DNA of 64,000 nt, taken from the NCBI RefSeq assembly GCF_023734095.1, contig NZ_AP024620.1, positions 1,422,501 through 1,486,500 on the forward strand. Direction: 5' to 3'. Under the pieces are notes generated by a model. It saw only the letters and a program-made list of their open reading frames with translations, did no database searches and had not been told where the DNA came from. Source of the stretch: Moorella sp. Hama-1. GTDB lineage: Bacteria > Bacillota > DSM-521 > Neomoorellales > Neomoorellaceae. This document shows, piece by piece, positions 3,192-36,829 of the stretch; the stretch's first letter is position 1, and every line of letters starts with the position of its first letter. Made by a program: the position numbers and the translations under genes.

Positions 3192-3204
3192 TTTACCCTC
3201 TCCC

Positions 3205-3984: not shown

Positions 3985-4008
3985 GATGCTCCTCCTGTTA
4001 GTAATTGA

Positions 4009-7557: not shown

Positions 7558-7617
7558 TTTTAAGCCTCCGCGGGAATGTTGGGCAGGCGGAAACCCGCCC
7601 GCCCTCACTCTGTCTTT

Positions 7618-8655: not shown

Positions 8656-8765
8656 AGCCAATCGTACCTCCTTTTTTGATAGTGACATAACGATTCAAAA
8701 GCCGGCCTGCCCTTGTAATCTACCCTTTACCTCACCCCTTAATCAGATTTGCTCGCGCTAATTTT

Positions 8766-15186: not shown

Positions 15187-16098
15187 CTATAAAAACCGGT
15201 TCAGGGGCGGGTCCGGTATCCGGGGGCGAACACCCTGCAGGCGGGCGGCATAGGTGCGAATGGCGTCAGCTGCGGCGCCGGCGGGGAAAGCCCAGGTGGC
15301 GTTGCCAACAGGACCGTAGAATATAAAGTCAGCGCCGTGACTTATGAGGTAAGAAAAAATGGCCCCCGCCGCCGCCTCAAAGGCGGGGGTCGCCAGACCC
15401 CGGGCCCGTTTCCAGGTATAGAGGGCATTGGCCGGGGCACAGCCAACCGGTAGTCCCGTCGCCGCCCGGATTTCTTCCATGGCGGCAGCCGTCCAGCCAA
15501 TGCTGGCGATATCCAACACGCCCGGATCGACCAGGATGTTCTCAATACCTGCACTTCTGGCAGCCGGCAGCAATTTGTCCTGGAGCAACTTGAGTTTGGC
15601 CGCCGGTTTTAAGGCTGTATTGGCGAAGGCCATAACTATGGCATTTTTAATTCCCGCCGCAGCTATCGCTGCCAGCTCGGCTTCGGTAAAGTTAATGTCC
15701 AGGGAATTATAAATCAAACGCGAGCACAGGCCGGAGCCGGCAAAATGACGCAGGGTTTCCATCCTTACCGTAGCCGACATGGAATCGACCAGCAGCGGCA
15801 TCGCGGTTTCGGCAGCCAGGAACTCCAGGTAATTGATCATGGCGGCGGTGGTACTGGCGATAACATCCAGCATTACCGGCAACCCGGTCAGGGCCGCCAT
15901 TTCTTCCTGCCTGGCCAGTAAAACCCGGGCCTGGTTGCGGTCGAACTCTCCCCTGGCTTCGTCGGTGACAATCCGGTGGCCGGCATAAAAGATACTCCCC
16001 ACCATGACGCAGGGATATTCCCCTGTCCGGCCGCCCAGGGTCAGGCCGGCACACTCGCATATTTGCGGTTGGTAATTACCCAAGTTTTTTCCCTCCAT
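15187..16098 (-). CDS. MtrH-family methyltransferase
   Basis: 303 residues resembling subunit H of methyl-tetrahydromethanopterin:CoM methyltransferase and its bacterial MtgA/MtvA-like relatives (GEYPCVMVGSIFYAGHRIV, DVIASTTAAMINYLEF, NILVDPGVLDIASIG, GLPVGCAPANALYTW, DFIFYGPVGNATWAFP). In acetogens these move methyl groups between a corrinoid protein and tetrahydrofolate. It follows a corrinoid protein gene, its expected partner. Start ATG 16098 has GGAGGG upstream. Whether the unit still works is uncertain, because its neighbours are damaged. Confidence 0.85.
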   Translation of the reverse strand: MEGKNLGNYQPQICECAGLTLGGRTGEYPCVMVGSIFYAGHRIVTDEARGEFDRNQARVLLARQEEMAALTGLPVMLDVIASTTAAMINYLEFLAAETAMPLLVDSMSATVRMETLRHFAGSGLCSRLIYNSLDINFTEAELAAIAAAGIKNAIVMAFANTALKPAAKLKLLQDKLLPAARSAGIENILVDPGVLDIASIGWTAAAMEEIRAATGLPVGCAPANALYTWKRARGLATPAFEAAAGAIFSYLISHGADFIFYGPVGNATWAFPAGAAADAIRTYAARLQGVRPRIPDPPLNRFL

Positions 16099-16121
16099 GT
16101 TCCTGTCCCCGGCTATTTTTC

Positions 16122-16156
16122 GGGCCGGGTGTACCTGCTACCAGGGTACCCGGCCC
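16122..16156 (-). other. Hairpin between the corrinoid and MtrH genes
   Basis: GGGCCGGGT... and ...ACCCGGCCC form a GC-rich stem of nine or more pairs with a bulge. It has no T-run in the minus direction and stands 24 bases before the MtrH start. It may set relative transcript levels of the two genes. Confidence 0.4.
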
Positions 16157-16194
16157 AAACTTGAAAAACCAAAACCATCGACAGTAGCTTATAT

Positions 16195-16917
16195 CTATTC
16201 CTTTTTCCTTTTTTTAACACATGATAATTTGATGCAGGTAAGCTGGATTTCCGGCCACGATGGCGTTGTCCTACCTAATGCAACCCCGTCAGCTCGCGCG
16301 CCCTGGTCACGGCCTCCAAAGGCGTCCTTGCCCCAGCAGTCGGCGCCGATTTCGGCCGCGAATTCCGCCGAAGTTGGGACGCCGCCGATCATGACCTTGA
16401 TTTTATCCCGGAGGCCCTCCTTTTCCAGTTCCTTAATTACATCACGCATCAAAAGCATGGTGGTACTCATATAGGCACCCAGGCCGATAATATCCGGTTC
16501 CAGTTCTTTGGCTCGGGCGATAAAAGTGCTGACCGGAACATCGACGCCGAGATCTACCACCTCAAAACCGGCCCCCCGGAGCATGGCCACGACAATGCTT
16601 TTACCCAGGTCGTGCATATCTCCCTGGATGGTACCGATGAGCACCCGGCCGTGCTGGTAGGCTTCGCCGGCGGCCAGCCGGGGCTCCAGGTCCAGCATGG
16701 CTGCCTTGAAGGCTTCGGCGCAGAGGATGATGTCCGGTAAGAAGTACTGGTTCTCCCGCCAGAGGCGACCGGCTTCTTCAATCCCGGCGACTACTGCCTG
16801 ATCCAGGATATCCCCGGGTGCCAATCCTGACGCCAGGCATTCCTTTACCAGTTCGGCCGCCAGGTTGTCGTCACCCTCCACGATGGCTTTCTTAAGTTCC
16901 GCTAATTGTTCAGCCAA
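16195..16917 (-). CDS. Corrinoid (B12-binding) methyl-carrier protein with C-terminal frameshift
   Basis: MtbC/MttC-like: an N-terminal helical cap (residues 1-85), then a B12-binding domain with GDMHDLGKSIV (DxHxxG, the cobalt-ligand His), GAYMSTTMLLMRDVI and MIGGVPTSAEFA. After ADCWGKDA the frame runs into an unrelated 30-residue tail. Removing one T from the TTT at 16318-16320 restores LEAVTRARELTGLH and a TAG at 16275-16277, the expected family ending. So the last 16 codons are shifted by a one-base insertion (real or sequencing error). Start TTG 16917 has GGAGGG eight bases upstream. The core fold is probably intact. It would carry methyl groups to the MtrH protein. Confidence 0.82.
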   Translation of the reverse strand: MAEQLAELKKAIVEGDDNLAAELVKECLASGLAPGDILDQAVVAGIEEAGRLWRENQYFLPDIILCAEAFKAAMLDLEPRLAAGEAYQHGRVLIGTIQGDMHDLGKSIVVAMLRGAGFEVVDLGVDVPVSTFIARAKELEPDIIGLGAYMSTTMLLMRDVIKELEKEGLRDKIKVMIGGVPTSAEFAAEIGADCWGKDAFGGRDQGARADGVALGRTTPSWPEIQLTCIKLSCVKKRKKE

Positions 16918-16932
16918 GGCTTATCCCTCCAT

Positions 16933-17530
16933 TTACAGAGTATCGATTTGGGCCATAAACTCGGCAAAGCTTTCCCGGGGCTGGGGTTTAAAAGCAGCAC
17001 CATCGTCACGGAACTGGTAAGGCAACTGTCCATAGTAATGGGCGGCCTGGATAGCAGCGTGGACGTGTTCAGGCGGCGTGTCGGCCGGGATATTGGCCAG
17101 GAAAATAGTTAAGCCGAATTCCGGGGCCAAGGTGTCGATAAGGCGTTTAACATTGAAAACTATCTTCTCTACCGGACCATCCCGGAGGAGGCGGGCATTG
17201 ATACCACCCATCACTACAACCTGTTGCCCCTGGGATTTTAATTCCCGGCCGTACTCTACTACCGTATCCAGGGGATACTCGTGCCAGCGCCCCATCCCCA
17301 GCATTAGTACCGGAGCACCCTGGGAAGCGACGGAGATTTCCAGGCAACGGCGCAGGATGCCGGCATCAAATTTTTCCGGCTGTTCTTCGCAGTAGTCGGC
17401 GGTCGCTACTGCGGCGGCATAAACCCCCATTTCGCCGCCCTTTTGCAAAAGGTGTAAATTCCAGGGCAATACCCACTCCTCAATCAATTTCAACGACAGG
17501 TTGGGAAAGGCGGACCAGGCGTCGGCCCCG
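16933..17530 (-). pseudogene. URO-D/MtaA-family methyltransferase, C-terminal half only
   Basis: The open frame begins near GADAWSAFPNLSLKLIEEW and ends with FLANIPADTPPEHVHAAIQAA. Both match the intact URO-D family protein at 18034 (VDAWGSLPNTDLQIWDEF; FLAHIIAETPPENIRAAVQAA). The N-terminal half (about 180 residues of barrel) is absent. Upstream the DNA is a PocR-like fragment in another frame. A TTG at 17493 could still start a 186-residue product, but it would lack much of the active site. It is most likely a deletion remnant. Confidence 0.72.
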
Positions 17531-19211: not shown

Positions 19212-20216
19212 CTAACAGGTTTCCCGGATAATCAGTTCGGCCGGTACTAGTACCCGGCGCCGGGGCGTCGAGGGGTCATTAATATGATCGAGTAACATTT
19301 CAGCCGCTTTAATACCGATCTCGTTACTGGGAGAATGGACGGTAGTCAGGCGCGGTCTGGTAAAAGGGGTAATGGGAATATCGTCAAAACCAATTACGGC
19401 CACATCCCGAGGGATGTGCAACCCCATGTCCAGGGCCGCATTAAGGGCACCGATAGCTAAAAGGTCATTGAAAGTGAATACAGCAGTTACTCGGGCCTGT
19501 CTCCCCAGCAGGGTGGCCATACATCGGTAACCGCTTTCAATCGAAATATAACTACCACTAACAATCTGGTTTAATGACAAACCGGCTTTTTTTAAAACCT
19601 CATCGGTTGCTTCCAGACGGCGCTTAGTAATCAGCATTTGCGGTTCACCGGTTATAACCCCAATTTCTGTATGTCCCTTTTGTAAAAGGTATTGGATAGC
19701 CATTCGGGTTCCCTGGCAATCATCAATATTAATACAGCTAATGCCGGCCTTGACAGGTATCGAATCGAGATCGGGCATATCTTCGACGACAACAATGGGG
19801 ATATCTAAACCGGCTAGAATTTGCTGATACCCTTCTTGTAGAGAGCCAGATCCGGCCAGGATAATGCCATCGACATGCCGCTGGATGATGTTGTTAAATA
19901 TCGCCTGCTGTTTAGGGACTTCTTCCTCAAAGGAAAAGATGCTGGTAGTATAACCCGAACTGGATAAAGCCGCCTCGCATCCTTCGGCCAGCTGGCTAAA
20001 GTAAGGATTGCGCAACGTAGGAAAAACGAGGGCTATGGTATAGGTGCGGCCCGTTAAAAGGCTTTTGGCCAGGGGGTTGGGGGTATAATTCATTTCCGTT
20101 ACGATTTGCAGGATACGCTCCCGGGTTTGGGGTCGCACCAACTCCGGTTTATTTAAAGCCCGTGACACAGTAGCAATAGATACTCCGGCCCTGGCAGCGA
20201 TAGTTTTTATATCCAT
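19212..20216 (-). CDS. LacI-family repressor of the Mch-like/FolB operon
   Basis: 334 residues: an N-terminal HTH (IKTIAARAGVSIATVSRAL) and hinge (YTPNPLAKSLLTGRT), then a sugar-binding-type effector domain (IALVFPTLRNPYFSQLAEG, VIGFDDIPITPFTRPRL). It is divergent from the operon beginning at 20410, and an operator-like palindrome lies between them. It is very similar in its HTH to the regulator at 31701, so the two may share operators. The effector is probably the imported compound or a breakdown product. Confidence 0.9.
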   Translation of the reverse strand: MDIKTIAARAGVSIATVSRALNKPELVRPQTRERILQIVTEMNYTPNPLAKSLLTGRTYTIALVFPTLRNPYFSQLAEGCEAALSSSGYTTSIFSFEEEVPKQQAIFNNIIQRHVDGIILAGSGSLQEGYQQILAGLDIPIVVVEDMPDLDSIPVKAGISCINIDDCQGTRMAIQYLLQKGHTEIGVITGEPQMLITKRRLEATDEVLKKAGLSLNQIVSGSYISIESGYRCMATLLGRQARVTAVFTFNDLLAIGALNAALDMGLHIPRDVAVIGFDDIPITPFTRPRLTTVHSPSNEIGIKAAEMLLDHINDPSTPRRRVLVPAELIIRETC

Positions 20217-20377
20217 TGATGAAACAACCCCTGCTTTATACTCCGCCCTTTTTTAAACCTTCACTTTATAGTAATACCTATCTTTCAGGCCCGTCAACCT
20301 AAAAAATTACTTTAAAAATTTATTTGTTTGCAGGAGGAATTTATAAAGTAATGGCGAATTAACTTCTTATTAACTCA

Positions 20378-20391
20378 TGTAAAGGTTTTCA
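20378..20391 (+). promoter_or_regulatory. LacI-type operator before the Mch-like operon
   Basis: TGTAAAGGTTTTCA is a near palindrome with the LacI/CcpA-type TGNAAN(CG)NTTNCA layout. It lies 19 bases before ATG 20410 and resembles the sites at 31534, 31672 and 32759. Confidence 0.5.
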
Positions 20392-20409
20392 TAAAGAGGG
20401 AAATCAACG

Positions 20410-21390
20410 ATGCCTGACGGTTTAAGAGCCAGCCTTAACAACCTGGCCGCTCAAATCCTGGAAGCGGAAGTTCTGCCCCAAGCTGAATCCCTGGGTATTG
20501 GCGTCATCAGGTTAACCAACGGAGCCGTTGTTATCGATATGGGTATTCGCTACCCTGGTAGCTGGTCGGCTGCCGCTTACTTTGTCAGGGTCGGTTTGGG
20601 AGGCCTGGGGCAGTTAACTTTTAATACGTATCCTTTAAACGGTTTCCTCATTCCGGCGGTCCAGATAACGGTAACTAATCCCTTAATCGCTGAAATGGCT
20701 TCCCATGTGGCCTACTGGAAGTTAAATCACCAGGGGAAAAATCTCGTTATTTCCGGACCAATCAGGAGTATAAAAGGCTCCGATGTTTTTGCCCGGGCTA
20801 CCGCTTATCGCGATGTTGCTGCTACTAAAGCCGTAGCTTGCCTACAAACCACTGAGATCCCCGGGGAGGAATTAGCGGAACTTCTGGCCAGTGAAATCGG
20901 GCTCCCGGTTACCTCCCTTTATATCCTGGTGGCTAAAACCGCCTCCATTGTCGGCGCCGTGCAGGTTTGCGCCCGGAATGTTGAACAAACTCTACCCACC
21001 CTCTATGACCGGGGGTTTGATCTAGCGAAGATTGTCCAGGCCGAGGGCCATACACCAGTAGTTTCTATTGTTGATGATGAAGAGGTGGCTTATGGTCACG
21101 TAAATGATTGCCTTATCTATGGTCAGGAAAGTAATATATATGTTCGTTGCCAGGATGAGGAGTTAATCCAAATATTAAATGATATTCCCTTTGTTAAGAA
21201 TAGAGGTATTTATGGAACTCCATTCCAGGAGCTTTTTCAGCGCTGCAGGAATGATTGGGCCCTGGTGCCCAGGGATTGGGATGCCCCCTGCCAGGTGAAT
21301 TTGATTAACCTGGCAACCGGCAACATTTTTTCCACGGGTTCCCGCCATTTAGGTATCCTTACCAGTGATTTTTTAGGTGTAAAGGAGTAA
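20410..21390 (+). CDS. Mch-like protein (methenyl-tetrahydromethanopterin cyclohydrolase family)
   Basis: 326 residues, about the archaeal Mch length. Recognisable blocks in order: RLTNGAVVIDMG (archaeal LENG..VIDCGV), VGLGGLGQLTF, FLIPAVQITVTNPLIAEMA, LVAKTASIVGAVQVCARNVE, NDCLIYGQ, and YGTPFQELFQ. The Arg-xx-Glu pair implicated in archaeal Mch catalysis (as I recall) is kept as R189 and E192. Mch interconverts methenyl and formyl C1 units on tetrahydromethanopterin, a cofactor not expected in an acetogen, so the real substrate may be another pterin-like or folate compound. It is the first gene of the operon; AGAGGG precedes ATG 20410. Confidence 0.83.
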   Translation: MPDGLRASLNNLAAQILEAEVLPQAESLGIGVIRLTNGAVVIDMGIRYPGSWSAAAYFVRVGLGGLGQLTFNTYPLNGFLIPAVQITVTNPLIAEMASHVAYWKLNHQGKNLVISGPIRSIKGSDVFARATAYRDVAATKAVACLQTTEIPGEELAELLASEIGLPVTSLYILVAKTASIVGAVQVCARNVEQTLPTLYDRGFDLAKIVQAEGHTPVVSIVDDEEVAYGHVNDCLIYGQESNIYVRCQDEELIQILNDIPFVKNRGIYGTPFQELFQRCRNDWALVPRDWDAPCQVNLINLATGNIFSTGSRHLGILTSDFLGVKE

Positions 21391-21395
21391 CCGGC

Positions 21396-22202
21396 ATGAA
21401 ACACCTGATCGATAACCTGATGGCTAATCCGGAGATCTATGGCCTCTGGAAATATATCCCCTACCCGGGTTGCACTATTCTTGACTGCGGTTTTAATACC
21501 CCCGGCGGCTGGGAGGCCGCCCGTTTGTTGGCCCTTGCTGCTATAGACGAAAGAGGTTTGGTTTCCTTTGGAAATTTTGATTTAGGAAGCTGCAGGTTAC
21601 CGGCCATCAATATTTGTTATGATTCCCCTAAAACCCTGCTTGCTACCCTGGCGCAACCAGTGCACATAAAAAACTGGGAGATTTTTGGCCCGGCTCTTGT
21701 ACCAGGTAATAAAAATAGACTACTTTTATGTTCAATAGATAAAATTGACTCTGGTTCTTGTGGTAGGCCTGCACTTCCGGAGTTGCTGATGGGCATAAAT
21801 AATACCCTGGATCTAAATAACCACGACCAGGTTGTTATAGCTATCGCCCCCTACCCCAGCCTTGTCGGCATGATCCTCCAGACTTCCTCGGCCCTACCCA
21901 GGACCCTGCAGATTTTAATTACTAATGGTCTGGATCCCGACCAGGTACTCTGGGGATGGAGTAGTTGTCCTCTTCCCCCGTTGGTGGATGACTTGCAGTT
22001 GGCCATTGCGCGCTTGGAGAAAACCTTGCTTTATGGACTAACTATCAGCCTTTGGGTCAGGGGTGATAATGAGCAACTAGTGACTTTATTAAATAAGACT
22101 CCCGTTAACGGACAGGTGCGTCTCCATAATTTGACCACAGCCAAGACTATCGTTAAAGGATCGATTGCCGGCGATCAATTAAGAAATCTATATAGTTTAT
22201 AG
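21396..22202 (+). CDS. Second, divergent Mch-like protein without the catalytic pair
   Basis: 268 residues starting five bases after the first Mch-like gene, with GGAGTAA before ATG 21396. It keeps the fold marks (GCTILDCGFNTPGGWEAARL, LPAINICYDSP, IAIAPYPSLVGMILQ) and a shortened C-terminus. Where the first copy has ARNVE this one reads SALPR, so both candidate catalytic residues are lost. It may be a non-catalytic subunit of a heteromer or bind the same ligand for another purpose (inference). It is too divergent to be a recent duplication. Confidence 0.68.
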   Translation: MKHLIDNLMANPEIYGLWKYIPYPGCTILDCGFNTPGGWEAARLLALAAIDERGLVSFGNFDLGSCRLPAINICYDSPKTLLATLAQPVHIKNWEIFGPALVPGNKNRLLLCSIDKIDSGSCGRPALPELLMGINNTLDLNNHDQVVIAIAPYPSLVGMILQTSSALPRTLQILITNGLDPDQVLWGWSSCPLPPLVDDLQLAIARLEKTLLYGLTISLWVRGDNEQLVTLLNKTPVNGQVRLHNLTTAKTIVKGSIAGDQLRNLYSL

Positions 22203-22215
22203 GGAGGAAATGTTG

Positions 22216-22872
22216 TTGGTTAAACTTCTGGGCATTTGCGGTAGTCCTCGAAAGGCAGCCACCGAATATATTCTGACGGAAGCCTTGCAGGCGGCAGCTG
22301 AAATTGAAGGTGTAACTACGCAACTGCTTACTCTCAGAGGCAAAAAAATAAACTTCTGCCTGCACTGCGACCGTTGCGTTAAGAATGAGCTGGATTACTG
22401 CCCCACTTTTGACGATGATATGCGCCCCGTTTACCAGACTTTTTACGAAGCCGACGCTTACCTCCTGGCCTCCCCCGTCTATAACATGGGGGCCAGCGGG
22501 CAAATAGTTACTTTTTTAAACCGTTTTCGGCCAACTTATACCATATTAAAAAAGGATCCCAATTATTTTTCCCGGAAGGTAGGTGGTGCCATCGCCATCG
22601 GTGGTACTCGTAATGGCGGCCAGGAAACAGCCCTGAATGTTTTGCTGGGGTTTTATTACACCCATGGCATCCTGGTGGTCAGCGGCGGCCTGGGTATTTA
22701 TCATGGCGCTGCTATCTGGAGCCAGGATCGTAAGGTGGAAGGGGCGAGGGAGGATGTGACCGGGGTAGCGAACGCCCGGACTATTGCCCGGCGGGTTGCC
22801 GAAGCGGCTATAATGCTAAAAAGTGGAAAGGGTCTACTTAATCATGAAACAGAAACTATTGCCAGAAGGTGA
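22216..22872 (+). CDS. Iron-sulfur flavoprotein (Isf-like, NADPH-dependent FMN reductase family)
   Basis: About 218 residues with a flavodoxin-like fold. LLGICGSPRKAATEYIL forms the FMN phosphate loop, and CLHCDRCVKNELDYC is a compact CX2CX2CX7C motif, which in Isf proteins of methanogens holds a [4Fe-4S] cluster. ASPVYNMGASGQIVTFLNRF is the second FMN loop. It would shuttle one or two electrons for a redox step in this operon. I prefer TTG 22216 (GGAGG eight bases upstream); an ATG at 22210 abuts the GGAGG. It is co-operonic with the Mch-like pair and overlaps the FolB-like gene by four bases. Confidence 0.8.
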   Translation: MVKLLGICGSPRKAATEYILTEALQAAAEIEGVTTQLLTLRGKKINFCLHCDRCVKNELDYCPTFDDDMRPVYQTFYEADAYLLASPVYNMGASGQIVTFLNRFRPTYTILKKDPNYFSRKVGGAIAIGGTRNGGQETALNVLLGFYYTHGILVVSGGLGIYHGAAIWSQDRKVEGAREDVTGVANARTIARRVAEAAIMLKSGKGLLNHETETIARR

Positions 22873-23252
22873 AGTGGTTGGAAAAAGAGGATCTTTTGTT
22901 AATAAAAGGAATGCAATTTTGGGCTAAACATGGGTACTTTTCCGAGGAAAACAAGCTAGGCCAACGATTTGTGGTAGATGTGGAAGTAGCCACTGACATG
23001 AGCCATACCTGTATCACTGATGATCTTACAGGTGCTTTGAGTTATATGGATGTCTATGCCCTTACCTCTAAGGTAGTAACGCAAGAAGAACACCGGACCG
23101 TCCAGAGGATTGCCCAACGTATCGCCGATGAGATCATAGCTGCTCACCCGATAAAACAGGTCCGGGTGACGGTGAAAAAACCTTCAGTGGCTATCGGTGG
23201 TATTGTGGAGTATAGCGGTTGCTCCATAGTCCGGGAACCGCAAAACCCATAA
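22869..23252 (+). CDS. FolB-like dihydroneopterin aldolase-family protein
   Basis: 127 residues, the usual FolB/FolX length. Visible: HGYFSEENKLGQRFVVDVEV (HG...E...GQ motif), LSYMDVY with the catalytic-region Tyr, and VRVTVKKPSVAIGG with the active-site Lys. The pterin-anchoring Glu (LIE.xAER in FolB) is replaced by Gln in TVQRIAQRIAD, so it may act on a different pterin. FolB cleaves the side chain of dihydroneopterin. No other folate genes are here. Start GTG 22869 overlaps the upstream stop (GTGA). Confidence 0.82.
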   Translation: MKWLEKEDLLLIKGMQFWAKHGYFSEENKLGQRFVVDVEVATDMSHTCITDDLTGALSYMDVYALTSKVVTQEEHRTVQRIAQRIADEIIAAHPIKQVRVTVKKPSVAIGGIVEYSGCSIVREPQNP

Positions 23253-23275: not shown

Positions 23276-24313
23276 ATGGGTAAACGCGTACGGAAAGGGT
23301 TGGCTTTAGTAGTTGTTGCTCTCCTGACCCTGACCCTGGCCCTGGTGGCCGGTTGTGGAAGCAAACCGGCCACAGATGCTGGCAAACAAGGTAATAGTCC
23401 GGCAACCGGCAATAGCTCTTCCGGTAGTGGTGATTTTAAGGTAGCCCTTGTTTGTCCCGGCGCTGTCAATGACGGTGGTTGGAATGCCTCTGCTCTCGCA
23501 GGTCTGAACGATATCCAGTCTAAACTCGGGGCCAAGGTTGCTTATACGGAAAAAGTGGCTCCTGCCAATTATGCCCAGGTGATTCGTACCTATGCCCGCC
23601 AGGGTTATAATCTGATCTTCGGCCATGGGTATGAATTTAATGAAGCCATGAAAACAGTGGCCCCGGAATTTCCTAATACCAAATTTGTGGTTATTAACGG
23701 TAACGTTACTGGTCCTAATTTGGCTTCTACGAACTTTAAATTTGGCGAACTGGGTTACTTTACCGGTATGGCGGCTGGTATGGTAACTAAGAGTAACAAA
23801 GTGGGTGTGGTTGCTCCTGAAGCCTCGCCAACGGTGACCGCAGATATTGATACCTTTAAAGAAGGCGTAGCCAAAGTGAATCCAAAAGCCACCGTATCCG
23901 TTTCCTATACCGGCAGCTGGGAAGATATCCCCAAGGCCAAGGAAGCAGCCAAGGCTTTGTTATCCCAGGGGGATGATGTCTTACTGGTTATGGGTAACTC
24001 CTTCAGTATCGGCGTTTTCCAGGCCTGTAAGGATGCCAATGCCAAGGCCATCGGTTGGGTATCAGACCAGAACTCTATGGCGCCAGATACTATTATTACC
24101 AGCGGTCTCCAATCAGTCGAAACTCTCTATGTCGATATGGCCCAGATGGTTAAAGACGGCAAATTCGAAGGTAAAAACAATATTTTTGGCATGAAAGAAA
24201 GTGCCCAATCTCTAGCACCTTTTAAGAACGTACCCCAGGATGTTGTTGATAAAGTCCAGGGCGCTGTTAAGGATTACCTGGCTGGCAAACTCAGTATTAA
24301 AACGATGTACTAA
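23276..24313 (+). CDS. BMP-family substrate-binding lipoprotein (second importer)
   Basis: About 345 residues. The signal ends in a lipobox (LVAGC|GS), followed by a Ser/Gly/Asn linker and a Bmp-type binding domain (VALVCPGAVNDGGWNASALA, LIFGHGYEFNEAMK, NVTGPNLAS, GYFTGMAAG, VSYTGSWEDI). It has a strong GGAGG nine bases before ATG 23276. It is the binding protein for the importer 24339-27900, and is clearly paralogous to 7618 but diverged enough for a different solute. Confidence 0.9.
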   Translation: MGKRVRKGLALVVVALLTLTLALVAGCGSKPATDAGKQGNSPATGNSSSGSGDFKVALVCPGAVNDGGWNASALAGLNDIQSKLGAKVAYTEKVAPANYAQVIRTYARQGYNLIFGHGYEFNEAMKTVAPEFPNTKFVVINGNVTGPNLASTNFKFGELGYFTGMAAGMVTKSNKVGVVAPEASPTVTADIDTFKEGVAKVNPKATVSVSYTGSWEDIPKAKEAAKALLSQGDDVLLVMGNSFSIGVFQACKDANAKAIGWVSDQNSMAPDTIITSGLQSVETLYVDMAQMVKDGKFEGKNNIFGMKESAQSLAPFKNVPQDVVDKVQGAVKDYLAGKLSIKTMY

Positions 24314-24338: not shown

Positions 24339-25394
24339 TTGGGAGTTAAAATCCAAGACACCCTGAATTACCTCCTAGTTGCATTCCTGGCCATAATTGT
24401 CGCCCTGGGTTTAAGCTCCTTTATTTTAATCTGGCAGGGCAGCAATCCGTGGGAAGCTTATGCAGCCTTGTTTGGGGGCGCCTTTATCGGTCTGGGTAAC
24501 CTGGGTGCGAGTTTGGTCCTGGCCTTGCCTTTGATGCTGGCAGGTCTTGGTATTGCCCTGGCCTTCCGGGCAGGTATCTTTAACATCGGCGCCGAAGGGC
24601 AGCTCTACCTTGGCGCCATGGCAGCAACCATTGTAGGTTCGCGTTACCCGGATTTACCGTTTGTGATCCACCTTCCACTGGCGCTGGCGGCAAGTTGTGC
24701 CGCCGGCGGCCTGTGGGCGCTTATCCCGGGCTTTTTGAAAGTCCGGCGGGGATTTAACGAGGTTATTACCACGATTTTGTTGAACTATATCGGTGTGTAC
24801 TTTGTCGATTACTCTGTGAATAGTTTTTTAAAGGACCCAGCTACCTTTGCCCCCCAATCACCACCGATCACTCCTACCGCGCAGTTACCTAAACTTTTAG
24901 CCGGTACCGAACTCAACGCCGGCCTGTTCCTGGGTTTGCTGGCAGCAGTAATCCTTTTCATCGTTCTCTACAAAACCGATTGGGGCTTCGGGGTGCGAGC
25001 CGTAGGTTCGAACCCCGAAGCCGCTCGGACGGCTGGAATGAACGCCGGTAGAACGCTGATAGTGACCATGGTTGTCAGCGGTGCCCTGGCCGGATTAGCC
25101 GGAGCCGTCCAGATTCTAGGTTACCAGAACATTTTGCTCCAGGACTTTTCGCCTAATACCGGCTATGATGCCATTGCGGTGGCCCTTTTAGGCAATCTTA
25201 ACCCCCTGGGCACAGTAGCGGCAGCCATCTTTTTCGGGGCCCTGCGCAATGGTGCCAATACCATGCAAATCCTGATGGGTATTCCAGTAACTATTGTCTA
25301 CATCATCCAAGCAATCATTATCGTCTGCGTTCTCGCCTTTAGTAAACTGAAAATCAGGCTGATCAACTTTAAGCTGCGGGAGGGGGTCCAATAA
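24339..25394 (+). CDS. ABC importer permease (first, second importer)
   Basis: 351 residues, about eight to ten membrane segments, BPD_transp_2 family (FRAGIFNIGAEGQLYLGAMA, VRAVGSNPEAARTAGM coupling loop). It is paralogous to 4925. TTG 24339 is the only plausible start in frame after the preceding TGA; the ribosome site is weak. It shares a TAATG stop/start overlap with the next permease. Confidence 0.87.
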   Translation: MGVKIQDTLNYLLVAFLAIIVALGLSSFILIWQGSNPWEAYAALFGGAFIGLGNLGASLVLALPLMLAGLGIALAFRAGIFNIGAEGQLYLGAMAATIVGSRYPDLPFVIHLPLALAASCAAGGLWALIPGFLKVRRGFNEVITTILLNYIGVYFVDYSVNSFLKDPATFAPQSPPITPTAQLPKLLAGTELNAGLFLGLLAAVILFIVLYKTDWGFGVRAVGSNPEAARTAGMNAGRTLIVTMVVSGALAGLAGAVQILGYQNILLQDFSPNTGYDAIAVALLGNLNPLGTVAAAIFFGALRNGANTMQILMGIPVTIVYIIQAIIIVCVLAFSKLKIRLINFKLREGVQ

Positions 25395-26383
25395 TGTTTC
25401 TGCTGCATATATTCACCGAGGCCGATTTCTATAACGCGGCCATCCGCCTAACAGTTCCCCTCCTGCTGGCGGCCACGGGCGGGCTTTTTAGCGAGCGCGC
25501 CGGCGTTTTAAACCTGGGACTGGAAGGCATGATGCTCATGGGCTCTTTTTTCGGCTATCTGGGTGCCCTTTATTCCCATAGCGTGATAATCGGCCTCCTG
25601 ATTGCAGCCCTCAGTGGTGGCCTGCTGGCCCTCCTGCATGCTTACATGAGCATTACGGTCAAGGTGGATCAGATTGTAACTGCCGTAGGTATTAATATGT
25701 TAGCCCTGGGGATAACCAGTACTGTGTTTCGCTTGATTTTCGGCACCAACCTTAACCAGTTGGAATCACCGGGTATGGTACCGGTGAACTTCGGGGCTTT
25801 GAGTAAAATACCTTTCCTGGGCCATGTATTCTTTGACCAGGTCCCCCTGGTCTATGTGGCCCTCGTCCTGGTCCTTTTGGCCAACTATATCCTTTACCAC
25901 ACCTTCTGGGGACTGGCCATCAGGGCGGCGGGCGAACACCCCCAGGCCCTGGATGTGGCTGGCATTGACGTCCTTAAAGTTCGTTACGTGGCGGTGGTAA
26001 TCAGCGGTCTCCTGGCCGGATTGGGTGGAGCCGCCGTCACCTTAAGCGGTATCAATACCTTCTACGATAATATTACCGCCGGTCGTGGTTTTATCGCCTT
26101 TGCCGCCATTGTCTTTGGTAAATGGACGGCCTTCGGTACCGCCCTGGCCACCCTTCTATTCGGCGCCGGCGAAGCCCTCCAATTACGCCTGCAGGCATTT
26201 AATTTCCCCATACCCTATCAATTCTTTTTAATGTTGCCCTATGCCCTGACCCTGGTAGCCCTCATCTTTTTCATGGGGCCTTCCAAAGGCCCTGCTGCCA
26301 GCGGGGCTCCCTATAACAAAGATAAAGCCCGCGGTCACCGCCGCCGGCCCACCAAGGCATCGCAATCGGGGGCGAATTTATGA
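25394..26383 (+). CDS. ABC importer permease (second, second importer)
   Basis: 329 residues. SERAGVLNLGLEGMMLMGSF opens the conserved core, and IRAAGEHPQALDVAGI is the ATPase-coupling loop. It is paralogous to 4009 but carries a longer basic tail (KARGHRRRPTKASQSG). It overlaps the ATPase gene by four bases (ATGA). Confidence 0.88.
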   Translation: MFLLHIFTEADFYNAAIRLTVPLLLAATGGLFSERAGVLNLGLEGMMLMGSFFGYLGALYSHSVIIGLLIAALSGGLLALLHAYMSITVKVDQIVTAVGINMLALGITSTVFRLIFGTNLNQLESPGMVPVNFGALSKIPFLGHVFFDQVPLVYVALVLVLLANYILYHTFWGLAIRAAGEHPQALDVAGIDVLKVRYVAVVISGLLAGLGGAAVTLSGINTFYDNITAGRGFIAFAAIVFGKWTAFGTALATLLFGAGEALQLRLQAFNFPIPYQFFLMLPYALTLVALIFFMGPSKGPAASGAPYNKDKARGHRRRPTKASQSGANL

Positions 26384-27900
26384 AACCACTTCTGAGCCTG
26401 CGCGGCATTACTAAGGAATTTCCCGGTGTCCTGGCTAACGATCAGGTTGACCTGGATGTTTACCCGGGGGAAGTCCATGCCCTGCTGGGGGAAAATGGCG
26501 CCGGTAAAAGCACCTTAATGAATATCCTTTACGGCCTCTACGGCGCCGATGCCGGGCAAATATTTTTGGCGGGCCGGGAAGTTACGATTGCCTCCCCCCG
26601 GGAAGCCATCGAACTGGGGATTGGCATGGTCCACCAGCATTTCATGCTGATCCCGGCCCTGACCGTATCCGAAAATATTATCCTGGGTATGGGCGGGAAG
26701 GTTCATCTTAACATGCGGGAGGCGGCGCAAAAAATCAGGGCGGCCGGGGAACAATACGGTTTAAAGGTCAACCCTGAAGCCAGGGTAGCCACCCTATCGG
26801 TCGGCCAGCAGCAAAGGGTCGAGATTTTAAAGGCCCTCTACCGGGGGGCGAAAATCCTGATCCTTGACGAACCGACGGCCGTCCTCACCCCCCAGGAAAC
26901 CGAAGAGCTGTTTGCGATTTTGCGCCAGCTTACTACCAGCGGCGTAACGGTAATCTTTATCAGCCATAAACTCAACGAAGTCATGGCCATTAGCCAGCGG
27001 GTTTCCGTATTGCGCCGCGGCCGGAAGATTAAAACAGTTTTTACCAGCGAGACCTCCCCTGAGGAATTGGCCAGCCTGATGGTCGGCCGGGAAGTAAACC
27101 TGCAGTTAGATAAACACCCTGCCTCCCCCGGTGAGCCGGTACTAGAAATAAAAGACCTTTATGTACCGGGTGAACAGAACTTGCCGGCGGTCCAGGGCAT
27201 ATCGTTGACCGTCCGGGCCGGCGAAATCTTTGGCCTGGCCGGCGTCGATGGTAACGGTCAATCGGAATTAATCCGGGCCATTACGGGGTTACAGCGGGTT
27301 CTTAAAGGCCACATCCGTATCTGCGGGCAGGAAGCAACTAATTTGCCGCCCCGGCAGCTGCTGGACCTGGGCATGGCCCATATTCCGGAAGATCGGCAGA
27401 AACAGGGCCTGATTCTGGATATGAAGATTGAGGAAAACCTGATCCTGGAGTACTTTAGCCAGGCCCCCTTTAGCAGGCATCATTTCCTGCAGGCAGGATC
27501 CATCCAAAATCTGGCGCAAAAACTCATTCAAGACTTCGATATCCGGACGCCTTCCTGCGAAATACCGGCCGGTAATCTCTCCGGCGGTAACCAGCAAAAA
27601 ATAATCCTGGCGCGCTCCCTTTACCGCCAGCCCAGATTATTGATTGCCGTTCACCCCACCCGGGGCCTGGATATCGGCGCTGCCGACTTTATTCACCGTA
27701 CCTTGATTGCCGAACGAGAACGCGGTTGCGCCATTTTACTCGTTTCCACCGAACTGGATGAAATACTCCGGGTGAGCGACCGGATCGGCATTATTTATGA
27801 AGGCCGGTTAATGGGGGTAATGGACGCCACCGGCGCTGATATTACGACTATCGGACTTTTAATGGCGGGAAGGGAGCAAGAAAACGAGGTGGCAATGTAA
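26380..27900 (+). CDS. ABC importer double ATPase (second importer)
   Basis: 506 residues with two ABC domains. Walker A of the first is GENGAGKSTLMNIL and its Walker B region is [13 protein letters not shown]. The second domain has a degenerate loop (GVDGNGQSELIR) and signature [13 protein letters not shown]. It is paralogous to 6025. The next gene starts at the base after its stop. Confidence 0.9.
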   Translation: MKPLLSLRGITKEFPGVLANDQVDLDVYPGEVHALLGENGAGKSTLMNILYGLYGADAGQIFLAGREVTIASPREAIELGIGMVHQHFMLIPALTVSENIILGMGGKVHLNMREAAQKIRAAGEQYGLKVNPEARVATLSVGQQQRVEILKALYRGAKILILDEPTAVLTPQETEELFAILRQLTTSGVTVIFISHKLNEVMAISQRVSVLRRGRKIKTVFTSETSPEELASLMVGREVNLQLDKHPASPGEPVLEIKDLYVPGEQNLPAVQGISLTVRAGEIFGLAGVDGNGQSELIRAITGLQRVLKGHIRICGQEATNLPPRQLLDLGMAHIPEDRQKQGLILDMKIEENLILEYFSQAPFSRHHFLQAGSIQNLAQKLIQDFDIRTPSCEIPAGNLSGGNQQKIILARSLYRQPRLLIAVHPTRGLDIGAADFIHRTLIAERERGCAILLVSTELDEILRVSDRIGIIYEGRLMGVMDATGADITTIGLLMAGREQENEVAM

Positions 27901-29265
27901 TTGCAAAAAGTAGATCTGCTTATTGCCGGCGGCACCCTGGTAACCATGGATGCTGCCGGGACAATAATTCCTGATGGAGCCCTAGCCATTGCCGGCGGCC
28001 AGATTGCGGCCCTGGGGCCGGAGGCTGAGGTAAGGGCCATCTGTGAAGCCAGGGAAGTAATTAACGCACGGGAACAGTATATCTTACCCGGCCTGATAAA
28101 CAGTCATACCCACCTTTTTCAGACTCTGCTTAAAGGGTTGGGGGCCGACACCCCCCTACAGACCTGGATTGCCCAACTCATAAACCCGGTGATACCTTTA
28201 CTCAAGGCCGAGGACTGTTACTATGCCGCCCAACTGGGTATCCTGGAAGCTATCCGCAGCGGCACGACGACCTTGCTGGATTTCATGTACCTGACCTACC
28301 GGCCCGAGTTTTCAGAGGCGGTGATTGCGGCCGCTAAAGACGCCGGCGTCCGTTTCCTTTACGGGCGGGGTATCCACGATACTGGCCTGGGCCGGGATGT
28401 TCCGCCCCTACTGGTTGAAGATGTAGACCATGTGCTTGAGGAAGTTGATTACCTGCGCGGGCGTTATGAAGATAAAAGTGACGGTATGCTCGCCATCTGG
28501 CTGGCCCCCTCGATAATGTGGGGCATGAGTTATGACGGCCTCCGTTCCCTGGCCGCTTATGCCCTGGAGAATAGGGTTCCTGTGACTATGCATCTCATGG
28601 AGACCGACTATGATATTGAGATTTGCCTGGCTGATTACGGCCAGCGCCCCCTGGAGGTCCTGGCCGCAACCGGCATGCTGGCTAATAGATTCCTGTTGGT
28701 ACATGGGGTCCGGGCTAATGATAGGGATTTGCAGATTATGGCGGACTATCGGGTGGCCTGGTCCCATTGCATGGCCGCCAACCTCTACCTGGGGTCCGGT
28801 ATCGCCCCCGTTACCCAGGCTGCGCCGGCTGTTGCCGTTGCCTTGGCTACCGACGGTGCGGCCAGCAACAACAGCCAGAATATGATCGAGCTTTTAAAGC
28901 TTACCGCCCTGGCCCATAAGGGCTTCCGGCGCGATCCGGCGATTATCGACGCCCGGCGGGTTGCCGCCATGGCTACTTGTGAAGGTGCCCGGGCTGTCGG
29001 CCTGGATAAAGAAATAGGGGTTCTGGCGCCTGGCTACCGGGCCGATTTAATTATTATTGACCCTTACTCCCCCACTACCACCCCGGTCCACGACCCCCTG
29101 GCAACTCTGGTCTACTCTTGCGACCAGGAAAACATCGCGACGGTGGTAATCAATGGGCGGGTGGTCATGCAGGACCGGCAGGTGATTACTATAGATGAAG
29201 AAAAGGTGCTCAGGAAGGCTGCCGCTATTGCCCGGCGTTTGCAGGGAGAGTTGTCTTGCCAGTAA
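27901..29265 (+). CDS. Amidohydrolase (TRZ/ATZ, guanine/8-oxoguanine deaminase-like)
   Basis: 454 residues. The metal-dependent hydrolase barrel shows NSHTHLFQTLLKGL (HxH), VTMHLMET and LVHGVRAND (further His), and ALATDGAASNN (Asp). Closest described relatives deaminate purine, triazine or pterin rings, but exact specificity cannot be read. It is last in the operon and starts at TTG 27901 directly after the ATPase stop, with GAGGTG inside the ATPase gene. In context it probably deaminates the imported heterocycle (inference). Confidence 0.87.
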   Translation: MQKVDLLIAGGTLVTMDAAGTIIPDGALAIAGGQIAALGPEAEVRAICEAREVINAREQYILPGLINSHTHLFQTLLKGLGADTPLQTWIAQLINPVIPLLKAEDCYYAAQLGILEAIRSGTTTLLDFMYLTYRPEFSEAVIAAAKDAGVRFLYGRGIHDTGLGRDVPPLLVEDVDHVLEEVDYLRGRYEDKSDGMLAIWLAPSIMWGMSYDGLRSLAAYALENRVPVTMHLMETDYDIEICLADYGQRPLEVLAATGMLANRFLLVHGVRANDRDLQIMADYRVAWSHCMAANLYLGSGIAPVTQAAPAVAVALATDGAASNNSQNMIELLKLTALAHKGFRRDPAIIDARRVAAMATCEGARAVGLDKEIGVLAPGYRADLIIIDPYSPTTTPVHDPLATLVYSCDQENIATVVINGRVVMQDRQVITIDEEKVLRKAAAIARRLQGELSCQ

Positions 29266-31685: not shown

Positions 31686-31700
31686 TTAGGAGTGATTGTT

Positions 31701-32699
31701 TTGGCTTTGGACATGAAGGCAATCGCCGAACAAGCCGGAGTTTCGGTAGCTACTGTCTCCCGGGCCCTCAGCCGGCCGGAAATGGTGCGACCGGCTACTA
31801 GGGAAAAAATTTTGGCCTTAGTAGAGGATTTGGGTTATAAACCCAATCCCTTGGCTCGGGGTTTGGTTACAGGCAGGACAGGGCAAATTGCCTTGGTGGT
31901 GCCGACCTTAAATAATCCTTTCTTTGCCCAGTTAGTCGAAGGATGTCAAAAATTTTTGATCCCCAGGGGTTATAATCTGGTTATCTTCAGTTCCCAGGAA
32001 TATAGGGAAAAAGAATTAACCATCCTCCGCAATCTGGATCAGAGGCGCCTCGACGGCCTCATCCTTTCGGGCTCGGGTTTTTTCCCCGACGATTATCACC
32101 CTATATTGGAACAAATTAGAATGCCGGCGGTTTTAATCGAACATTTAGCCGATGTCCCCCATTTGAGTTCCGTTTATATTGATGATTACGTCGGTACTAC
32201 CATGGCCGTTCAGCACCTGGTTAATGGCGGCCACCGGCAGCTGGGGGTTATTGCCGGCAGCCCTCATATGCTGACCACCAGCCGGCGCCTGAAAGCTGTT
32301 AAAAATGTTTTAAAAGAGGCCAATCTCCCCTTTACCGGGAGGCAACTTGTTTATGGTGATTATTCCTCCCTGGAATCAGGGGCTGACAGCCTGAAGGCGT
32401 TATTTAAGACCCACCACCCACCGACGGCGGTATTTGCTTTAAATGATATCCTTGCCATTGGCGCCCTTAAGGCTGCCCGGGAGCTAGGTTTAAAAATTCC
32501 TGAGGATTTGGCGCTCATTGGCTTCGACGACATTCCCATGGCAGCTTATTGCAACCCTCCTTTGAGCACCATCCGTTCCCCCAGTTTAGAACTAGGCCAG
32601 CAGGCAGCCCGGCTCCTCCTTGAGCAATTAAGCCGGGAGAAGGCGCCGGTTAAAAAGGTTTTGTTGCCGGTTGAACTGGTATTAAGGGGTTCCTGTTAA
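31701..32699 (+). CDS. LacI-family repressor of the aldolase/kinase operon
   Basis: About 332 residues: HTH (MKAIAEQAGVSVATVSRAL), hinge (YKPNPLARGLVTGRT) and periplasmic-binding-like effector domain (IALVVPTLNNPFFAQLVEG, LIGFDDIPMAAYCNPPL). I chose TTG 31701, eight bases after TAGGAG; the GTG at 31692 overlaps that ribosome site. It is closely related to the regulator at 19212. Flanking operator-like sites at 31534, 31672 and 32759 suggest it controls itself and both flanking units. Confidence 0.9.
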   Translation: MALDMKAIAEQAGVSVATVSRALSRPEMVRPATREKILALVEDLGYKPNPLARGLVTGRTGQIALVVPTLNNPFFAQLVEGCQKFLIPRGYNLVIFSSQEYREKELTILRNLDQRRLDGLILSGSGFFPDDYHPILEQIRMPAVLIEHLADVPHLSSVYIDDYVGTTMAVQHLVNGGHRQLGVIAGSPHMLTTSRRLKAVKNVLKEANLPFTGRQLVYGDYSSLESGADSLKALFKTHHPPTAVFALNDILAIGALKAARELGLKIPEDLALIGFDDIPMAAYCNPPLSTIRSPSLELGQQAARLLLEQLSREKAPVKKVLLPVELVLRGSC

Positions 32700-32758
32700 G
32701 TGACCTAAATTTTTTTATCGTTAGAGCAGGATTTTGGGGAGCGATGGAGAAATATAAA

Positions 32759-32772
32759 TGCAAACGCTTACA
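32759..32772 (+). promoter_or_regulatory. LacI-type operator before the second aldolase
   Basis: TGCAAACGCTTACA, the best match in the window to the LacI/CcpA-family consensus, 20 bases before the aldolase start. A CcpA (catabolite) site is an alternative reading. Confidence 0.6.
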
Positions 32773-32792
32773 TTAATGTGGAGGGATGCTCG

Positions 32793-33575
32793 ATGGGAAA
32801 GTATAAACGCTTGCAGCATATTTTACGTCCCGATGACCGGACGGTTATTGTGGCTATGGATCATGGCGGTACTTCCGGTCCGATGCCGGGAATTGTTAAC
32901 CCGGAAATTACCTTGCAGCAGGTTATTGCCGGCGGCGCTGATGCTATATTAACCACCGTTGGCGTGGCTAAGAATTTCGAACGGGTTTTAGGTTCAACCG
33001 GGTTGATAATACGCCTGGATTTCCCGGCTACCGATCTGGTGACTGGAGTTTATGATTGCGAGCTTTTTATTGAAGTTGAGGAAGCCGTCCGGTTAGGTGC
33101 CGATGCCGTCATCCTTTCAGCCGGACCTGGTCAAGGTGTCGAACGGAAAACCCTTAAAAATTTGTCCCGCGTAGCGCAGGAGTGCGAACGCTACGGCATG
33201 CCGTTAATCGCCGAGATGTACCCCGGCGGTTTTAACGGCCCCGCCGAGATGATTACGATTGATAATTTGAAACTGGCGGCGCGCATTGCTGCCGAATGGG
33301 GCGCTGATATGGTTAAAATGCCCTATCGTCCTGGTTTTGACGCCGTTACTGCCGGTTGTTATATTCCCATTGTGGTTTTGGGTGGTGCCAAAACAAATAA
33401 CGAAGAAATATTTTTCACTAACATCTGGGATGCCCTTCGCAATGGGGCGCAGGGCGTAGCTATTGGCCGCAATATTTGGGGCCATCCCCAACCGGCCAGG
33501 GTGCTTAAGGTTTTAAACGCCTTGGTGCATGAAAAGACAGATGTAGCCACAGCAATGGCGCACCTGGTTAAGTAA
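32793..33575 (+). CDS. DhnA/DeoC-type class I aldolase (second copy)
   Basis: About 260 residues, clearly paralogous to 3205: VIVAMDHGGTS, GMPLIAEMYPGGF, DMVKMPYRPGFDAVTAGCY with the likely Schiff-base Lys, VVVLGGAKTNNEE, GVAIGRNIWGHPQ. I chose ATG 32793 (GGAGGG upstream); the GTG at 32778 would overlap that ribosome site. It leads the operon aldolase-dehydrogenase-kinase-flavoprotein, where a kinase would phosphorylate a sugar-like fragment and the aldolase would split it (inference). Confidence 0.88.
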   Translation: MGKYKRLQHILRPDDRTVIVAMDHGGTSGPMPGIVNPEITLQQVIAGGADAILTTVGVAKNFERVLGSTGLIIRLDFPATDLVTGVYDCELFIEVEEAVRLGADAVILSAGPGQGVERKTLKNLSRVAQECERYGMPLIAEMYPGGFNGPAEMITIDNLKLAARIAAEWGADMVKMPYRPGFDAVTAGCYIPIVVLGGAKTNNEEIFFTNIWDALRNGAQGVAIGRNIWGHPQPARVLKVLNALVHEKTDVATAMAHLVK

Positions 33576-33677
33576 AAATATTAGTATTTATCGCTAGTGT
33601 ATATACCGTCATTTTCTCCTTTGCTAGACGGTGAAAGTCGTTTCGAGTCAGACTAAATTCTTGAAGGGGTAATTTAA

Positions 33678-34721
33678 ATGCCAGGCACATATAAAGCAGC
33701 CGTGATGACGGCACCGAAAACCATTGAATTTTGGGATGTTCCCATACCTGAACCAGGCAACGGTGAAGTCTTAATAAAGGTCAAGGCGGTCGGTATCTGC
33801 ACCTGGGAGCAAAGGATTTACCAGAGCGCCAAACCCGATGCCTATCCTTTCTGGGGCGGGCACGAGATCGCCGGGGTCGTTGCTAAGATTGGTCCTGGGG
33901 TACGCAATGACCTGCAGGAAGGAGATCATGTAGCCATCGCCAGCCTCACCCGCTGCGGCGAATGCTATTTCTGCCGCCGTGGCCTGGACAACCTGTGCCT
34001 GTACGCTGAAACTCCTATGCCCGGCCAGCCTAAAGGGCCGCGGGGTTTTAGCGAGTACCTCCTGGTACGCGGTTATGAATGCTATAAAATCTCCCCTGAA
34101 TTGGACTTTACCCAGGCCGCCTTGTCTGAGCCGGTGGCTTGCTGTACCCGCAGCGTCAGGCAATTGGCGGTCGCTTTCGGCGATACCGTTGTCATTCAGG
34201 GAGCTGGCATTATGGGGCTTTTGCACGCTAAATTGTGCAAGCTCCGGGGAGCTACGGTTATTATCGCCGAACCGGATGCCGCCAGGAGAGAAGCCGCCTT
34301 AAAAGCTGGCGCCGATTACGCCCTTAATCCCCTCGAAGAAGACCCTACCGGTTATGTGCGGCGGCATGTCAATCCCCAGGGTGCCGAGATAGTTGTTTTT
34401 ACGGCCGGCGGCCCGGTCGCTTTTCAACAGGCTGTTACGACAGTAGCGGCCGGCGGGCGCATTATGCTTTACGGCTCCATGCACCCCTCGGGCACGGTTA
34501 CCATTGATGCCAACGATATTCACTATCGTGAGTACCGCTTGCTGGGCAGTTCCCGCCACGACAAAGAAAGTTTCCGGGAAGCGGTGGCCCTGCTATCCAG
34601 CGGGAGCATTAAAGTCGACGATATGGTAAGCACCGTTCTTCCCTTCGACCAAATCCAGGCTGGCTTTCAATTAGCCCTCGCCGGTGGTCAGTACCGGGTT
34701 GTACTGCGAATCGCAGAATAA
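33678..34721 (+). CDS. Zinc-dependent dehydrogenase (CTWE type, third copy)
   Basis: 347 residues, MDR family: VGICTWEQRIY, GGHEIAG, CGECYFCRRGLDNLC, VVIQGAGIMGLLHAKL. It is closest in motif to 2160, and both directly follow an aldolase gene. About 100 bases separate it from the aldolase; nothing else is seen in that gap. Confidence 0.88.
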   Translation: MPGTYKAAVMTAPKTIEFWDVPIPEPGNGEVLIKVKAVGICTWEQRIYQSAKPDAYPFWGGHEIAGVVAKIGPGVRNDLQEGDHVAIASLTRCGECYFCRRGLDNLCLYAETPMPGQPKGPRGFSEYLLVRGYECYKISPELDFTQAALSEPVACCTRSVRQLAVAFGDTVVIQGAGIMGLLHAKLCKLRGATVIIAEPDAARREAALKAGADYALNPLEEDPTGYVRRHVNPQGAEIVVFTAGGPVAFQQAVTTVAAGGRIMLYGSMHPSGTVTIDANDIHYREYRLLGSSRHDKESFREAVALLSSGSIKVDDMVSTVLPFDQIQAGFQLALAGGQYRVVLRIAE

Positions 34722-34736
34722 GGGGGAATATACCTC

Positions 34737-36224: not shown

Positions 36225-36226
36225 AA

Positions 36227-36829
36227 ATGAAGGTCGTTGCTTTTATCGGCAGCGCCCGTAAAAACGGCAATACAGCTACGGTGGTAAAACAAATCCTGGC
36301 CGGAAGTCAAAGCAAAGGGGCGACGACTGAGGTCTTTTATCTCCACGACTACAATATTAAACCCTGCCAGGGATGCCGCTACTGCGAAGAAAGAAACAGA
36401 TGTAAAATAACCGATGATGATGTACCAGTATTGCACCAGGCTATTATTGCCAGTGATGCTATCATCCTGGGAACACCTACCTATTACGGTGATATTACCG
36501 GCCAGTTTAAGCAATTTGTTGACCGGTGTTATCCTTTTTGCCAGATAGTAACTGATGGTAAAGGTAAAATGGAGTTTTATAGTATCCTTCCTCAACGCAA
36601 ACTGGGAATTCTAGTAGCGATCAGTGGTAGTATGGGGCCGGAAGTTTTAGATAGCCATATAAAAGTGGCCGGACATTGTTTTAATGATATAAATGCCGAG
36701 TTCTGGCGTAAGATTTTGGTGCCGTATACAACCTGGACCCCGGTAACCGCCGACCATCCGGTAATGGCCACAGCTTTTAAAACCGGTGAAGAATTGGTAG
36801 AAGCCATTGCTAACAAGAAGGACGGCTAA
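36227..36829 (+). CDS. Iron-sulfur flavoprotein (Isf-like), second copy
   Basis: 200 residues with a flavodoxin-like fold: VVAFIGSARKNGNTATVV (FMN loop), CQGCRYCEERNRC (CX2CX2CX5C, possible [4Fe-4S] site) and LGTPTYYGDITGQFKQFVDR (second FMN loop). GGAGG lies just before ATG 36227, two bases after the kinase stop. It ends the aldolase/kinase operon just as 22216 sits inside the Mch-like operon. Confidence 0.82.
   Translation: MKVVAFIGSARKNGNTATVVKQILAGSQSKGATTEVFYLHDYNIKPCQGCRYCEERNRCKITDDDVPVLHQAIIASDAIILGTPTYYGDITGQFKQFVDRCYPFCQIVTDGKGKMEFYSILPQRKLGILVAISGSMGPEVLDSHIKVAGHCFNDINAEFWRKILVPYTTWTPVTADHPVMATAFKTGEELVEAIANKKDG

Follow-up and report, generated by a model that had tools for sequence, protein, structure and literature searches.

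Tandem Mch-like proteins in a LacI-associated uptake operon: a possible hydrolase with a pseudoenzyme subunit

Why does a bacterial uptake operon encode two adjacent Mch-like proteins, only one of which features the residues expected of an active enzyme? The question was pursued within the window, i.e., the whole 64 kb stretch of DNA that was analysed, and in the genomes in which the same pair occurs.

The two proteins and their active sites

The first gene (20410..21390, plus strand) encodes a Mch-like protein of 326 aa, here named MchA', and is followed on the same strand after a gap of 5 bp by the gene of a shorter Mch-like protein of 268 aa, MchB' (21396..22202), according to the ORF list. 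The initial annotation had described two tandem Mch-like proteins, the second being about 60 residues shorter; both ORFs lie where it placed them, the difference amounts to 58 residues, and all motifs that it quoted are present in the translations. On the Pfam MCH profile (PF02289), MchA' scored 248 bits (E = 2e-73) over its whole length (profile positions 1-309 of 311) and MchB' 72 bits (E = 1e-19), both above the curated cut-off. With TIGR03120, the NCBIfam equivalog of H4MPT cyclohydrolases, MchA' reached 223 bits, narrowly below the cut-off of 228.8, and MchB' 56 bits. The copy of MchA' in G005, a close relative of the window genome (G000) within the same genus, passes this cut-off with 232 bits.

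In the alignment, A-R-N-V-E of MchA' (residues 188-192) coincides with G-R-I-V-E of A. fulgidus Mch, in which R183 and E186 are the counterparts of R189 and E192 (positions counted from the alignment). This Arg/Glu pair, which we take to be the catalytic residues of Mch, is replaced in MchB' by S165 and P168, and MchB' likewise misses internal and C-terminal segments of Mch. The early observation that one copy keeps and the other loses the pair was thus borne out, and MchA' is apparently active-looking and MchB' inactive-looking, the latter being a probable pseudoenzyme subunit. Among the orthologues from 12 genomes, both Arg and Glu are retained in every MchA', the Glu is missing in every MchB', and the Arg is still present in 4 of the 12 MchB' proteins.

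AlphaFold2 models (pLDDT 89.4 for MchA' and 80.5 for MchB') predicted a Mch fold for both proteins. The model of MchA' matched the solved Mch 4gvq with a VIA Z of 43.5, the best non-Mch chain reaching 5.1, and that of MchB' matched Mch 1qlm with a VIA Z of 27.0 (rmsd 2.6, 258 residues), the best non-Mch chain reaching 6.2. Single-chain models and profile search, both far above chance, hence agree with the initially proposed relation to Mch, as neither an unrelated fold nor a lack of Mch matches was encountered.

Pairing, phylogeny and C1 metabolism

MchA' was found in 12 genomes, five of which were identified by whole-genome search (G000, G005, G067, G130, and G095). A scan of named genomes contributed the other seven: Marasmitruncus massiliensis, three Pseudoflavonifractor genomes, and one MAG each of Oscillibacter, Lachnospiraceae, and Clostridiales. 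The scan also found G095 again, and its ninth match (L070), an outlier at 35%, was discarded as no MchA'. In all 12 genomes, which range from Moorella-class bacteria to Clostridia of the gut, an intact MchB' gene directly follows that of MchA' on the same strand; in G005, the pair lies at the opposite end of the operon and is still together. MchB' diverges faster than its neighbours: G000 and G005 share about 30% identity in MchB', 55% in MchA', and 73-84% in the further operon proteins that were aligned. The length of MchB' ranges from about 207 to 271 aa across the genomes. Such variability in length and sequence is unusual for a subunit with a tight structural role. A literature search on pterin deaminase/isoxanthopterin, T-fold uricase/DHNA, and Mch in Moorella returned nothing on this system.

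In the phylogeny, the 12 MchA' proteins form a single clade (100/100) and the 12 MchB' proteins a clade of their own (96/64) with long branches. Archaeal, proteobacterial, and H4MPT-cluster Mch, including the one of G000 itself, constitute a third group (99/99), outside of which MchA' is placed, and additional Mch-like proteins are located nearer to MchA'. As this first tree included a badly trimmed row (M_L017), a quicker rerun omitted it; the MchA' clade and the H4MPT group hold, and the MchB' of G067 falls just outside the other MchB' proteins. A long-branch warning applies to MchB', for which depth and internal order are unsure. Judging from adjacency in 12 of 12 genomes, the consistent residue pattern, and the separate clade, MchB' is an old, maintained partner of MchA' and not a decaying copy; a decaying duplicate was rejected since MchB' is intact throughout and belongs to one clade. 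Likewise, a recent duplication within Moorella was rejected, as the split between the two proteins predates their spread over these genomes.

At three loci (L046, 4063-9580; L047, 6146-11579; L093, 9468-15578) from three Bacillota families, a 2-oxoacid-dehydrogenase-type E1alpha-E1beta-E2 set with an SDR gene is bordered by other Mch-like proteins; in G095 and G150, a GntR regulator was identified as well. To our knowledge, no known pathway joins Mch-like proteins with a set of this kind.

Besides MchA' and MchB', the 3.32 Mb genome of G000 encodes a further Mch of full strength (416 bits) at 2.04 Mb in an H4MPT/Fhc cluster (2.03-2.055 Mb), which comprises Fhc-type subunits, an FhcD/FTR homologue, and ATP-grasp genes, with beta-RFAP synthase nearby. 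The surrounding region (2,030,001-2,060,000; L005, L006) with its FhcA/B/C/D-like, Mch, and ATP-grasp genes of C1 metabolism is found in only some relatives. G005 retains the operon and carries neither an H4MPT/Fhc cluster nor another Mch nor an H4MPT marker. Beta-RFAP synthase (TIGR00144) served as the marker of H4MPT biosynthesis. Of the 11 pair-bearing genomes searched, G000 encodes it and the other 10 do not (the Clostridiales MAG, L066, was left out of this search). A role of MchA'/MchB' in H4MPT-based C1 metabolism is consequently unlikely, because 10 of the 11 searchable pair genomes are without the marker. The archaeal-type Mch chemistry on H4MPT that the initial annotation implied is not supported by this distribution, nor by the position of MchA' outside the H4MPT-Mch clade.

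FTR/FhcD-like formyltransferases were observed in genomes without beta-RFAP synthase as well (L088 and L089 in G095; L090-L092 in G095, G067, and G150). Their genes have Bmp/Nup importers and COG0402 amidohydrolases as neighbours or occur together with ADH and FGGY-kinase genes, and these formyltransferases apparently represent another C1-cofactor enzyme family recruited to uptake or catabolic operons.

The operon and its second FolB

The pair is followed on the plus strand by the gene of an FMN_red-family flavoprotein (22210..22872; PF03358, 88 bits), whose translation features the motif C-x2-C-x2-C-x7-C of the iron-sulfur flavoprotein type and whose relatives are encoded adjacent or close to the pair in 7 genomes. 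It is followed by the gene of a second FolB of the dihydroneopterin-aldolase family, here named FolBq (22869..23252; TIGR00525, 98 bits, cut-off 72). Genes of a Bmp/PnrA-type ABC substrate-binding protein (23279..24313; PF02608, 200 bits), two Nup-type ABC permeases (24339..25394 and 25394..26383), and a Nup-type ABC ATPase (26380..27900) come next; the first permease has orthologues next to the pair in G005, G130, and G067 as well as in gut genomes. The last gene encodes a COG0402-type amidohydrolase/deaminase (27901..29265; PF01979, 215 bits). Its best NCBIfam equivalogs all remained below their cut-offs (5'-deoxyadenosine deaminase, 317/522 bits; 8-oxoguanine deaminase, 279/532), with 185/455 bits for SsnA. 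Solved structures were rejected as a guide to its substrate, since only distant relatives were found (atrazine chlorohydrolase, MTA/SAH deaminase, and 8-oxoguanine deaminase).

A LacI-family repressor (PF00356 and Peripla_BP_3) is encoded divergently at 19212..20216 on the minus strand, and a LacI-family gene adjoins the operon in G005, G130, and G067 as well. The spacer between this gene and that of MchA' contains the palindrome ATGTAAAGGTTTTCAT (20377..20392), a candidate LacI-type operator. The pattern TG[TA]AAASSTTT[TA]CA has this one match in the 64 kb window and recurs in the matching spacers of the same three genomes; promoter and terminator scans gave results at chance level. The gene order of G130 equals that of the window, and in G067 it is split around a second LacI gene. 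FMN_red, FolBq, and Nup genes also surround the pair in Marasmitruncus, Oscillibacter, and Lachnospiraceae. Nevertheless, the operon is not universal, because the pair lies away from FolBq and transporter in G095 and Pseudoflavonifractor-type loci. Additional genes comprise Fe-ADH (G005, G067, Marasmitruncus), AFOR (G067), and ALDH, UbiD, and XDH (Marasmitruncus), and the loci of Oscillibacter and Lachnospiraceae add XDH subunits as well as PreA/PydA-like, hydantoinase-like, and YgeY proteins, i.e., heterocycle-degrading enzymes.

Elsewhere in the window, MtgA/MtgC-type corrinoid methyltransferase genes and a short URO-D-like gene are located at 15187-17493 (minus strand). An affiliation of the pair with these Mtg genes was rejected, since the operon of G005 does not have them as neighbours. 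A sugar/nucleoside-type operon with a second Bmp/Nup ABC set, a DhnA aldolase, and a dehydrogenase occupies 2160-8688. The region 31692-36829, likewise a sugar/nucleoside-type operon and syntenic in G005, features LacI, DhnA aldolase, dehydrogenase, FGGY kinase, and a paralogue of the FMN_red flavoprotein.

FolBq retains E22, Y54, and K100 (the lysine of the KP motif), the catalytic residues of dihydroneopterin aldolase. Position 74 is Gln in all seven operon-linked copies and Glu in all 23 ordinary FolB proteins. The corresponding Glu73 of E. coli DHNA bonds to N3-H and the 2-amino group and was reported to matter more for binding than any other residue (PMC4176595). We infer that Gln74 is better suited to a 2-oxo ring than Glu, and such a preference would match the product expected of the deaminase in the same operon. 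G000, G005, G067, and G130 each possess one ordinary FolB besides the operon copy, and among the 22 genomes of the class Moorellia, a second FolB occurs in exactly two, which are the two with the pair; FolB was not found in two Pseudoflavonifractor genomes. Fused double FolB proteins with Gln at both anchors are encoded at L079 (7006-7743; G095) and L078 (9714-10520; Pseudoflavonifractor), where they adjoin FMN_red and Bmp/Nup genes away from the mch pair. The exchange of Glu for Gln offers a cheap sequence marker for finding further loci of this kind.

Proposed function and relation to known systems

A heteromer of MchA' and MchB' is the likeliest reading of the pair, because both strictly co-occur in 12 of 12 genomes, and the operon probably serves the catabolism of an imported bicyclic N-heterocycle and not one-carbon metabolism. 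In the proposed sequence of events, the Bmp/Nup transporter would import the heterocycle, the COG0402 enzyme would strip the 2-amino group and leave a 2,4-dioxo ring, and the iron-sulfur flavoprotein would then reduce this ring. FolBq may act on the deaminated ring, e.g., by retro-aldol loss of the side chain, and the resulting aldehyde could be passed to the Fe-ADH, AFOR, or ALDH present in some loci. MchA', as the putative catalytic subunit of a heteromeric Mch-fold hydrolase, would hydrolyse a cyclic amidine bond (N-CH=N) with its Arg/Glu pair, as Mch does with methenyl-H4MPT, and the non-catalytic MchB' would complete or hold the assembly. Taken together, we give an even chance to the best-supported reading, in which a heteromeric hydrolase of the Mch fold that includes a pseudoenzyme subunit takes part in the LacI-controlled uptake and breakdown of a pterin- or purine-class heterocycle, with heteromer, substrate class, reactions, and their order all being deduced from genes and models. 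The broad specificities of the deaminase, transporter, and flavoprotein families speak against this reading, as do the variability of MchB', the Arg retained by four MchB' proteins, the loci in which the pair is separated from FolBq and transporter, and the two Pseudoflavonifractor genomes with no FolB.

A more specific version, offered tentatively as possible rather than probable, has MchA'B' opening a ring in a hitherto undescribed route of anaerobic pterin degradation (import, deamination, side-chain cleavage by FolBq, and ring opening) common to Moorella-class bacteria and gut Clostridia, with C1-cofactor enzymes (Mch-like and, in some genomes, FTR/Fhc-like) recruited to catabolism. It is somewhat unlikely that the same complex instead handles a purine, with MchA'B' opening the imidazole at C8, an N-CH=N unit like the methenyl bridge, and FolBq being a T-fold protein for a xanthine-type ring. 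Bmp/Nup importers typically carry nucleosides, and uricase, likewise a T-fold protein, has Gln as its ring anchor, both of which suit a purine. The XDH, PydA/PreA-like reductase, hydantoinase-like, and YgeY genes of the Oscillibacter and Lachnospiraceae loci point in the same direction, as they resemble the reductive uricolytic pathway (PMC12507026). However, E22, Y54, and K100 of FolBq would be needless for a purine that lacks a polyol side chain, and a metal-free hydrolase is poorly suited to an aromatic imidazole.

That MchA'B' builds or alters a modified pterin cofactor, be it in biosynthesis or in salvage, and does not degrade a nutrient, appears improbable: FolB and Mch are both pterin-enzyme families and the operon could serve the salvage of an imported pterin, but the LacI gene with its conserved operator, the importer, the amidohydrolase, and the Fe-ADH, AFOR, ALDH, XDH, and YgeY neighbours look catabolic. 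The initial annotation had also considered a ligand-sensing role, and a fold kept without the catalytic Glu would suit MchB' as a free sensory or regulatory protein. Nevertheless, the Pfam profile search recognised no DNA-binding or signalling domain in MchB', the operon already encodes a LacI-family sensor, and the strict 1:1 adjacency with MchA' suits a subunit better, which makes this role quite improbable. Already disfavoured and the least credible is an ordinary H4MPT cyclohydrolase accompanied by a degenerate duplicate. The TIGR03120 scores of MchA' close to and, in G005, above the cut-off and the H4MPT-type cluster of G000 speak in its favour, yet that cluster contains its own Mch, G005 carries neither another Mch nor an H4MPT marker, and MchB' is intact in every genome and forms its own clade.

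If the proposed heteromeric hydrolase is real, a Mch lineage has departed from C1 metabolism, acquired a pseudoenzyme as obligate partner, and now acts on a host- or environment-derived heterocycle. Proteins of the MchA'/MchB' type are likely annotated as H4MPT enzymes, and C1 metabolism could thereby be attributed wrongly to Clostridia that live in the gut or are related to acetogens. The locus moreover offers a concrete, testable lead on the use of pterin- or purine-like compounds by anaerobes, including gut bacteria.

Compared to archaeal and bacterial Mch (PF02289; 1QLM, 4GVQ, 4FIO), MchA' shares the fold, the full-length alignment, and the Arg/Glu pair, and MchB' the fold. Unlike these enzymes, MchA' belongs to a separate clade, occurs in genomes without the H4MPT marker, is encoded with a partner that lacks the Arg/Glu pair and internal segments, and has its gene in an uptake operon instead of a C1 cluster. 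FolBq resembles FolB dihydroneopterin aldolase in family and in E22/Y54/K100 but differs in the ring-anchoring Glu74, which is Gln in all operon-linked copies, and in being a second copy beside an ordinary one in G000, G005, G067, and G130. The reductive uric-acid degradation cluster includes XdhD, YgfK/UacX, SsnA, HyuA, and YgeY and, in the sections consulted, is not described with Mch, FolB, or Bmp genes (PMC12507026). The window operon differs from it in featuring no XDH, PydA-like, or YgeY genes and an amidohydrolase far below the SsnA cut-off. Two gut genomes, in contrast, encode XDH, PydA/PreA-like, hydantoinase-like, COG0402, and YgeY proteins beside the pair, in common with that cluster, and the gut loci can be regarded as partial look-alikes of the reductive uric-acid pathway.
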